IMG/VR virus record: IMGVR_UViG_3300025889_000494 | Coordinates: 1 to 33,461 of that record | DNA from: a virus | Length of the DNA: 33,461 nucleotides | Direction: 5' to 3' (one strand) | Shown here: positions 26,450-27,673 of the stretch, in pieces | How positions within the stretch are numbered: the first letter of the stretch is position 1 | How the letters are laid out: the number at the start of each line of letters is the position of its first letter | Made by a program: the position numbers and the translations under genes | Notes under the pieces: generated by a model | Told to the model about the DNA's origin: nothing | The model's input: the letters and a program-made list of their open reading frames with translations, nothing else | Database searches by the model: none

Positions 26450-26646
26450 GCTGCCGGACCTCCCTGTAGGCTACATACCTGCTCCAGATACTGGATGTAC
26501 TCCACTACCTGCTGCTGTTGGGCTTGCATGTTAGCGATATACTGCGTTAACTCACTGATTTCGGTGAACGACTGGTGATACAGGTACAGTGCCAAGCATA
26601 CCGTAGCTATCAGGAACCCATTAGTCAAGTCTTTAATCGTGCTCAT
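26446..26646 (-). CDS. Small membrane/coiled-coil protein
   Basis: A 66-residue protein with an N-terminal membrane span (about 9-26: TNGFLIATVCLALYLYHQ) and then a Gln-rich coiled coil (about 28-58: YIANMQAQQQQVVEYIQYLEQ). Its first five residues, MSTIK, and its ribosome site are inside the 36-bp repeat shared with the cytosine methyltransferase start. Before the methyltransferase was inserted it was probably the direct downstream neighbour of the 126-aa membrane gene. Function is unknown; anchored coiled coils of this size are seen among spanin-like and superinfection proteins. Confidence 0.7.
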   Translation of the reverse strand: MSTIKDLTNGFLIATVCLALYLYHQSFTEISELTQYIANMQAQQQQVVEYIQYLEQVCSLQGGPAA

Positions 26647-26667
26647 TGTTCTACCTCTAATTTAGTC
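26632..26667 (-). repeat. 36-bp direct repeat, copy at the methyltransferase 3' side
   Basis: Thirty-six bases identical to 27638-27673 in the same orientation. This copy spans a vestigial 8-codon ORF, the ribosome site and the first five codons of the 66-aa gene. The flanking base differs on both sides, so the repeat is exactly 36 bp. Confidence 0.95.
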
Positions 26668-26669
26668 AT
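26643..26669 (-). pseudogene. Remnant 8-codon ORF from the 126-aa gene's C-terminus
   Basis: Just after the methyltransferase TAA, an overlapping ATG opens MTKLEVEQ and a stop. TKLEVEQ is exactly the C-terminal sequence of the 126-aa membrane protein, present here because of the 36-bp duplication. Its stop overlaps the 66-aa gene's ATG as ATGA. It may still serve as a coupling relay (TAATG, then ATGA) although the peptide is probably meaningless. Confidence 0.7.
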
Positions 26670-27652
26670 TAGACAAATTGCTTTATGATTTCCGCAGCGA
26701 CTTGCGGGACAATGGCGTTACCCGCTCCGCGCAGTATGCCCACTCGATTGGGTATCCCATTAGCCAGAGGGAAAAGCGCGGGTTCAGTTGGAATTTGACG
26801 GTACTTTCCGTCTCGGCAGTAGATAAGACCGGCACCTGATCCTTCACATTGCTGCACCCAGCTTTCTTCTTCGCTCTGGCTAGAGCTTCGTCCGACCTCG
26901 CCCCCATTGAGTCCATTGCATTCGGCGTTCCCCACGGCTGAACCATCCTCGCAGCCCCGCCCAAAGTCGTTCCACGGGTCGGTGCATTCGCTGCCTTGCC
27001 CTCGCCCCTGACTTGCGGATTGTCTTGAGTCGATGGGGTAGACCAGAACGTCACCGTTGACGCTATCACCCCCAACCCGTTCTGGAAGTTTTCCCTGTAC
27101 CTGTTGCAAGCCTTCGTTCCATCGGTGTGCATTGGAGTCGGCCACGAAGAAGAGCCGCTCCCTTTTGTGCGGTGCGCCGATGCCACAAGCTGGCAATACG
27201 GCCATTGCCGTGGCGTAACCTTCTGCTTCCATGTCAGCTTGTAGATCATCGAACCACTCTGTTCTAATTGCCGAGGCAACTTGTTCGCCAAAAACGATTG
27301 CAGGTTTGCACTGGCGGATGAGATCGAAGAAGTGAGGCCACAAGTGTCGCTCGTCATCTGTCCCTTGTTGCTTTCCTGCTGTTGAGAATGGCTGGCAGGG
27401 TGGGCTTCCTGTCCAAACAGGTCTGTCTGGACTCCATCCTGCGAGCTGTAATGCTCTACTCCATCCCCCGATTCCCGCGAAGAAATGGCATTGTGTAAAT
27501 CCTTTGAGGTCTGATGGTTCGACATCTGCTATGCTCCTGGTATCAACCTCACCTTTCGGAATGAGGCCATCTTCGATCAATTCTTTCAGCCACTCGGCTG
27601 CGAATTTATCCCACTCGTTATAATAATTCATTCTCAATTTAATCGTGCTCAT
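26669..27652 (-). CDS. DNA cytosine C5 methyltransferase
   Basis: A 327-residue phage Dcm-type enzyme. Motif I is FAGIGG (58-63), motif IV PPCQPFS with the catalytic Cys86, motif VI is a GEQV variant (Glu123), motif VIII HKRERLF (162-168) and motif X GNAIVP (311-316). The target-recognition region (about 172-280) is Gly/Ser/Gln-rich. The product could protect phage DNA from restriction. ATG at 27652 overlaps the upstream stop (ATGA). Its first five residues MSTIK and the Shine-Dalgarno come from the 36-bp repeat, so the ancestral start may have been Met8. A 280-codon ORF is nested in another frame. Confidence 0.93.
   Translation of the reverse strand: MSTIKLRMNYYNEWDKFAAEWLKELIEDGLIPKGEVDTRSIADVEPSDLKGFTQCHFFAGIGGWSRALQLAGWSPDRPVWTGSPPCQPFSTAGKQQGTDDERHLWPHFFDLIRQCKPAIVFGEQVASAIRTEWFDDLQADMEAEGYATAMAVLPACGIGAPHKRERLFFVADSNAHRWNEGLQQVQGKLPERVGGDSVNGDVLVYPIDSRQSASQGRGQGSECTDPWNDFGRGCEDGSAVGNAECNGLNGGEVGRSSSQSEEESWVQQCEGSGAGLIYCRDGKYRQIPTEPALFPLANGIPNRVGILRGAGNAIVPQVAAEIIKQFV
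26683..27525 (-). CDS. Nested alternative-frame ORF inside the methyltransferase gene
   Basis: An open frame of 280 codons lies completely inside the methyltransferase gene. Its ATG (27525) has AGGAG at eight bases. The product has LTWKQKVTPRQW (98-109), WPTP, WSTP and WGTP elements, and a C-terminal LNPRFSLWLMGYPIEW. I recall proteins with repeated W-x-TP elements and an NPRF..LMG.P..W ending near phage and metagenomic cytosine methylases, which supports real coding. The function is unknown; partnership with the methylase is inference. The alternative is that the frame is open only because the methylase composition forbids stops. Confidence 0.55.
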   Translation of the reverse strand: MSNHQTSKDLHNAISSRESGDGVEHYSSQDGVQTDLFGQEAHPASHSQQQESNKGQMTSDTCGLTSSISSASANLQSFLANKLPRQLEQSGSMIYKLTWKQKVTPRQWPYCQLVASAHRTKGSGSSSWPTPMHTDGTKACNRYRENFQNGLGVIASTVTFWSTPSTQDNPQVRGEGKAANAPTRGTTLGGAARMVQPWGTPNAMDSMGARSDEALARAKKKAGCSNVKDQVPVLSTAETESTVKFQLNPRFSLWLMGYPIEWAYCAERVTPLSRKSLRKS

Positions 27653-27673
27653 TGTTCTACCTCTAATTTAGTC
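27638..27673 (-). repeat. 36-bp direct repeat, copy at the methyltransferase 5' side
   Basis: Identical to 26632-26667. It covers the last codons and stop of the 126-aa membrane gene, and the ribosome site and first five codons of the methyltransferase. The two copies are 1006 bp apart and bracket the methyltransferase gene closely. Confidence 0.95.

Follow-up and report, generated by a model that had tools for sequence, protein, structure and literature searches.

A C5-cytosine methyltransferase gene in the IMG/VR virus record IMGVR_UViG_3300025889_000494 (the whole 33,461-nucleotide stretch analysed, positions 1 to 33,461, is here called the window) encloses a second gene in another reading frame of the same strand. 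We give a probability of roughly three in four to the reading that the two frames of this one DNA segment encode a single C5-cytosine methyltransferase (C5-MTase) as two interleaved subunits. The methylase ORF would supply the catalytic parts of the large domain, motifs I–VIII and then X, with the linker between VIII and X being a weakly constrained, out-of-frame shadow of the nested gene. The nested ORF would initiate at its own Shine-Dalgarno sequence and ATG, cross the catalytic region as a leader under weak constraint, and continue through a helix-hairpin, an array of W-x-TP cassettes of about 35 residues each, and a motif IX-like helix. The two chains would then form a heterodimer in which the nested chain picks the DNA target or targets and methyl transfer falls to the methylase chain, the number and identity of the cassettes setting specificity. 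Heterodimer assembly, target recognition and methylation by the pair are the activities to which the sequences most likely point.

Layout of the locus

The methylase ORF (26669–27652, minus strand, 327 codons) matched PF00145 (4e-23) and phrog_363 (2.1e-81). Alignment located motif I (FAGIGG, 27464–27481), motif IV (PPCQ, 27392–27403), motif VI (EQV, 27278–27286), motif VIII (HKRERLFF, 27146–27169) and motif X (GNAIV, 26708–26722), identifying the product as a C5-cytosine DNA methyltransferase. All of the motifs named in the original prediction are there; motif VI reads GEQV and not ENV, with the catalytic Glu retained.

The nested ORF (26683–27525, minus strand, 280 codons) lies wholly within the methylase gene in the +1 frame and is a candidate recognition subunit. 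Its start codon (ATG, 27525–27523) follows, after an 8-nt spacer, a Shine-Dalgarno-like AGGAG (27534–27538) that falls within methylase codons Arg39–Ser40; direct reading of the sequence agreed exactly with the start and spacing first predicted. The W-x-TP elements and the LNPRF..LMGYPIEW ending that had been remarked on are both present in the nested product, and LMGYPIEW, said to lie over the C-terminal motif region of the methylase, overlies the segment immediately before motif X. The nested ORF matched the profile phrog_1008 (2.6e-35), here sitting inside a phrog_363 methylase, and had no match in Pfam; by tblastn the protein was found in 272 phage records and also in 14 plasmid records.

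Open reading in both frames

Openness of the nested frame was assessed in 134 unique relatives, retrieved by a methylase-only search to avoid bias. From motif I to motif X, the +1 frame was open in 128 of the 134 loci, against 7.1 expected under synonymous-codon permutation, and the six exceptions had stops near one end; the +2 frame contained 1383 stops and was open in none. W-x-TP elements numbered 300 in these loci, where 42 were expected. When the methylase codons of the window alone were permuted synonymously, an open +1 frame from motif I to motif X had a probability of 0.0016. Every one of 122 loci, most of them found in viral contigs and bacterial genomes by searching with the nested protein, had an overlapping methylase in the same relative frame, and no standalone nested protein was found among them. 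By these comparisons the nested ORF is a real gene and not a product of chance; frequent nested-frame stops among methylase relatives, named beforehand as evidence against the overlap, did not occur.

Openness extended to the stretches in which each frame would be only a shadow of the other. Across motifs I–VIII, the +1 frame was open in 106 of 108 loci (31 expected), with 3 stops against 123 expected. With the nested codons permuted instead, the methylase frame from the recognition region to motif IX was open in 108 of 108 loci (7.7 expected), with 0 stops against 312; this includes the methylase-frame shadow of the cassette array (26834–27127), which is open and weakly conserved. Since each frame is free of stops even where its residues are weakly constrained, the openness of the shadows is itself under selection, and both frames appear to be translated full length.

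The nested start is also conserved: an ATG with a Shine-Dalgarno-like sequence was present in 55 of 95 loci (9.7 expected), and the Arg of the RSI motif was encoded by AGG in 28% of cases, against 8% elsewhere. In four loci (L035, L050, L052 and L053) stops occur in the usual nested start region but no stop interrupts the frame once a later ATG, with AGGAGG, is reached, which suggests that the nested leader can be shortened.

Alternating selection

In a +1 overlap the third position of a methylase codon coincides with the second of a nested codon, and the first methylase position with the third nested one; because of this phase relation, the codon position that varies reveals the frame under constraint. 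Alignment of the variable region guided by the methylase protein dilutes the signal in distant pairs, so we used close pairs and a frame-neutral nucleotide alignment. Across 606 close pairs, 66–76% of the differences before and around motifs I–IV were at methylase position 3; methylase position 1 dominated over most of the variable region (50–72%), and position 3 dominated again 3' of motif X (65%). In finer bins the share of methylase position 3 rose to 88% at PCQ and 91% at GNAIV, and at PRFSL/WLMGY 65–78% of the differences were at methylase position 1. Disjoint pairs gave the same picture: position 3 exceeded position 1 in 97 of 97 pairs around motifs I–IV (sign test) and in 92 of 95 at motif X, and position 1 exceeded position 3 in 76 of 82 at the LMGYP block. 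For the variable region, aligned as nucleotides in a frame-neutral way, position 1 was ahead of position 3 in 56 of 59 pairs.

The selected frame, as read from these substitutions, alternates along the gene. Most substitutions fall at methylase position 3 over motifs I–IV, VIII and X; in the variable region and the LNPRFSLWLMGYP block it is nested position 3 that takes most of them. Both frames are constrained between motifs VI and VIII and directly before the motif IX-like block, and over motifs I–IV the nested frame shows little residue-level constraint. Codon-usage log-odds for the window alone were noisy. Both frames of the segment are thus selected, but they are not both conserved throughout, as constraint alternates between them. 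Synonymous-site variation gave no sign of constraint confined to the methylase frame. The earlier suggestion that a methyltransferase is overprinted with a partner, which might be a subunit for specificity or regulation, gains support from the openness of, and selection on, the nested frame in relatives.

The catalytic chain

The AlphaFold2 model of the methylase was mostly confident over residues 1–190 and at the motif X helix (pLDDT 77–93). Residues 205–270 and 289–311 fell below 50, with values of 34–45 over most of the cassette shadow, and the model contained no folded recognition domain. Among PDB structures, the best Foldseek matches to the large-domain fold were to M.HhaI (E 1e-9, about 200 columns). 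Motif IX was found in frame 0 of none of the 134 loci within 45 codons of motif X.

A conserved hairpin, YCRDGKYRQI, is read in the methylase frame at 26789–26833, immediately ahead of the segment where the nested frame has its motif IX-like block. This C-R-D-G-K hairpin might contribute to recognition, which would count against the division of labour that we favour.

Cassettes and a motif IX-like block

Nested residues 70–118 (27172–27318), predicted to form a helix and beta hairpin (pLDDT blocks of 71–94), are the first stretch in which both frames are constrained, with a mixed positional pattern of substitution. Between motif VIII and the LMG block, the nested frame consists of an array of one to six cassettes with a median length of 35 aa. 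In the window, cassette 1 (WPTPMHTDG..., 27046–27144) belongs to a family present in 10 loci at array positions 1–3, cassette 2 (WSTPSTQDN..., 26935–27045) belongs to a family present in 5 loci, and the last cassette with its linker (WGTPNAMDS..., 26818–26934) was delimited by alignment. Cassette families recur in diverged loci at differing array positions; across 392 comparisons of same-family cassettes from diverged loci, identity was 0.72 in the nested frame versus 0.37 in the methylase frame. These comparisons support modularity of the cassettes as a property of the nested sequence.

The array is followed by the block LNPRFSLWLMGYPIEW (26740–26787), which is under nested-frame selection. 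Directly ahead of motif X, the pattern L-x-P-...-L-M-G-[FYL]-P-x-x-[FWY] was found in the +1 frame of 124 of the 134 loci and in frames 0 and +2 of none; canonical C5-MTases from the same genomes have LTPRECARLMGFPDTF or LTPEELEELMGFPRGF at the position of motif IX. A canonical motif-IX profile, restricted to the stretch ahead of motif X, pointed to the right place in the +1 frame, but only 16% of loci exceeded the 99th percentile of shuffles, and a strict motif-IX PSSM scanned across the entire +1 frame could not tell real sequences from shuffled ones. As position and pattern agree and profile scores are modest, the correspondence of the nested block to C5-MTase motif IX is well supported, though unproven. 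LMGYPIEW had been taken for a motif of a partner protein; it is conserved in the nested frame, but it resembles motif IX and not a generic partner motif. Because of this resemblance, and because motif IX is absent from the methylase frame, the nested protein most likely supplies the recognition region and motif IX of the same enzyme.

Structure prediction for the nested protein was mostly of low confidence (pLDDT 57, pTM 0.27). The better-predicted parts were the helix-hairpin and the helices at and after the motif IX-like block, and comparison with solved structures gave no direct sequence or fold match.

Relation to known methylases

The small subunit of M.EcoHK31I is read, in an alternative frame, from inside the gene of the large one. 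This methylase (YGGCCR; Lee, Kam and Shaw 1995) has a large polypeptide with motifs I–VIII, X and a predicted recognition domain, and a small polypeptide with only motif IX (PMC3404938). It and M.AquI are the closest known systems. Like M.EcoHK31I, the enzyme proposed here would be a C5-MTase of two polypeptides, one with motifs I–VIII and X and the other with motif IX; the M.EcoHK31I-type split is seen here by pattern and position, with a moderate profile score for motif IX. The predicted recognition domain of M.EcoHK31I is on the large subunit, whereas here the variable region follows the nested frame as a modular cassette array; M.EcoHK31I is also part of a restriction-modification system, whereas the present gene is one of phages and prophages. 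M.AquI (CYCGRG) is split into a motif I–VIII subunit and a motif IX-bearing subunit (PMC3404938). Motif X belongs to its small subunit as well; in the present locus motif X remains with the catalytic chain, and the overlap takes in the full length of the nested ORF. Fragments of M.SssI cut between motif VIII and the recognition domain complement each other in cells (PMC3404938). By analogy with such split C5-MTases, the two chains probably assemble; what sets the present case apart from them is the complete interleaving with alternating selection, together with the cassette array.

The multispecific C5-MTases of SPbeta-group Bacillus phages contain several modular segments for recognition, each of roughly 40 residues. 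Recognition in those enzymes is modular, as is proposed for the cassettes here, but single-chain and in frame. In actinophage methylases of the ShiLan type, an out-of-frame ORF for an HNH endonuclease is hidden in the methylase gene (PMC11855218); concealment out of frame in a phage methylase is common to both cases, but the ShiLan-type ORF is a homing insertion encoding a nuclease and does not form half of an enzyme along the full extent of the gene (PMC11855218).

Alternative explanations

The nested frame may instead encode a real protein with a separate role, such as anti-restriction or regulation of the methylase, which we consider unlikely. The evidence shows coding and leaves a recognition function as a prediction, the nested protein has no Pfam or PDB match, and its resemblance to motif IX is short. 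Against this, the methylase frame has neither motif IX nor a folded recognition domain, the nested frame fills both by position, and actinophage relatives carry such cassettes and motif X in one chain.

Programmed +1 ribosomal frameshifting after motif VIII, yielding one chain of motifs I–VIII, cassettes and motif IX, would fit the switch of selected frame near motif VIII and the fused and split forms among actinophages. Alone, however, it predicts no selection for an open +1 frame over motifs I–VIII or for an open methylase frame over the cassettes, leaves the upstream ATG with its Shine-Dalgarno sequence unaccounted for, and requires a second shift to reach motif X. Both frames should stay open throughout if ribosomes read the entire gene in each of them, but not if a frameshift joins the real parts, and we regard frameshifting as quite improbable. 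It is scarcely credible that the nested frame codes for nothing and only reflects how the methylase uses its codons and is conserved. Conserved methylase motifs can cast +1 shadows that look conserved, and the nested frame is little constrained at the residue level over motifs I–IV. In the variable region and the LMGYP block, however, it is the nested codon phase that substitutions follow, contradicting this reading, and cassette identity is higher in the nested frame (0.72) than in the methylase frame (0.37).

Phage relatives and annotation

In the actinophage Silvy, gp53 is a single chain in which motifs I–VIII are accompanied by PTP cassettes, an LMG-like block and motif X. The corresponding gene of RemusLoopin (gp34/gp35) and Peaches (gp77/gp76) is split after motif VIII into two ORFs, the second of which, in the +1 frame, has the cassettes, the LMG-like block and motif X; in MidnightRain the PTP cassettes are in the +1 frame, and the LMG-like block and motif X remain in frame 0. 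These in-frame and split relatives support the nested module as part of the enzyme, a parallel drawn from a few members. The C5-MTases of Jarcob, RemusLoopin and Peaches are annotated as two adjoining, overlapping ORFs, the first with the catalytic part and the second with PTP cassettes, LMG-like block and motif X, and such fission forms coexist with the Silvy fusion form among actinophages.

GenBank annotates both overlapping ORFs in K1ind2 ('C-specific methylase' and 'Mte8-like protein'), K1H (ORF29/ORF28) and Paenibacillus phage Jacopo (gp56/gp57). The same +1-frame overlap is found in all three, annotated as two methylases or an unknown. The literature searched offered no explanation of these pairs and no description of such an arrangement in phages, and the name 'Mte8' appeared in one use, without explanation. 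In phiKX1, the nested ORF (1903–2511) is annotated as a hypothetical protein and the overlapped methylase is left unannotated in GenBank.

Most copies annotated as a single gene are, judging from their sequences, probably half-enzymes. We also lean towards a more general statement: that this is a single enzyme spread over two frames with coding alternating between them, that its exchangeable cassettes are DNA modules open in both frames, that the layout occurs in many phages and prophages of Proteobacteria and in some phages of Firmicutes, and that a large share of annotated phage DNA methyltransferases are only half of an active enzyme. If true, many phage genes listed as single DNA methyltransferases are two genes, one of them discarded by gene callers, and phiKX1 presents the opposite error, the partner having been annotated instead of the methylase. 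A codon-optimised synthetic methylase would silently lose its partner, and failed or misassigned activities could be artefacts. The locus would also be a clear natural case of one enzyme shared by two frames, each sequence carrying an internal control, and its cassettes would provide a system for the study of change in phage methylation specificity.

The methylase gene is flanked by a perfect 36-nt direct repeat (26632–26667 and 27638–27673, spacing 1006 bp) that covers the leader, the ATG and the first codons (MSTIK); a downstream ORF of 66 aa also begins with MSTIK. This repeat may be a recombination boundary for gain or loss of the methylase gene. The alignments of many relatives begin at MNYYNE, methylase residue 8 (position 27631), and the true methylase start may lie 7 codons downstream of the listed ATG, the first residues deriving from the repeated leader.
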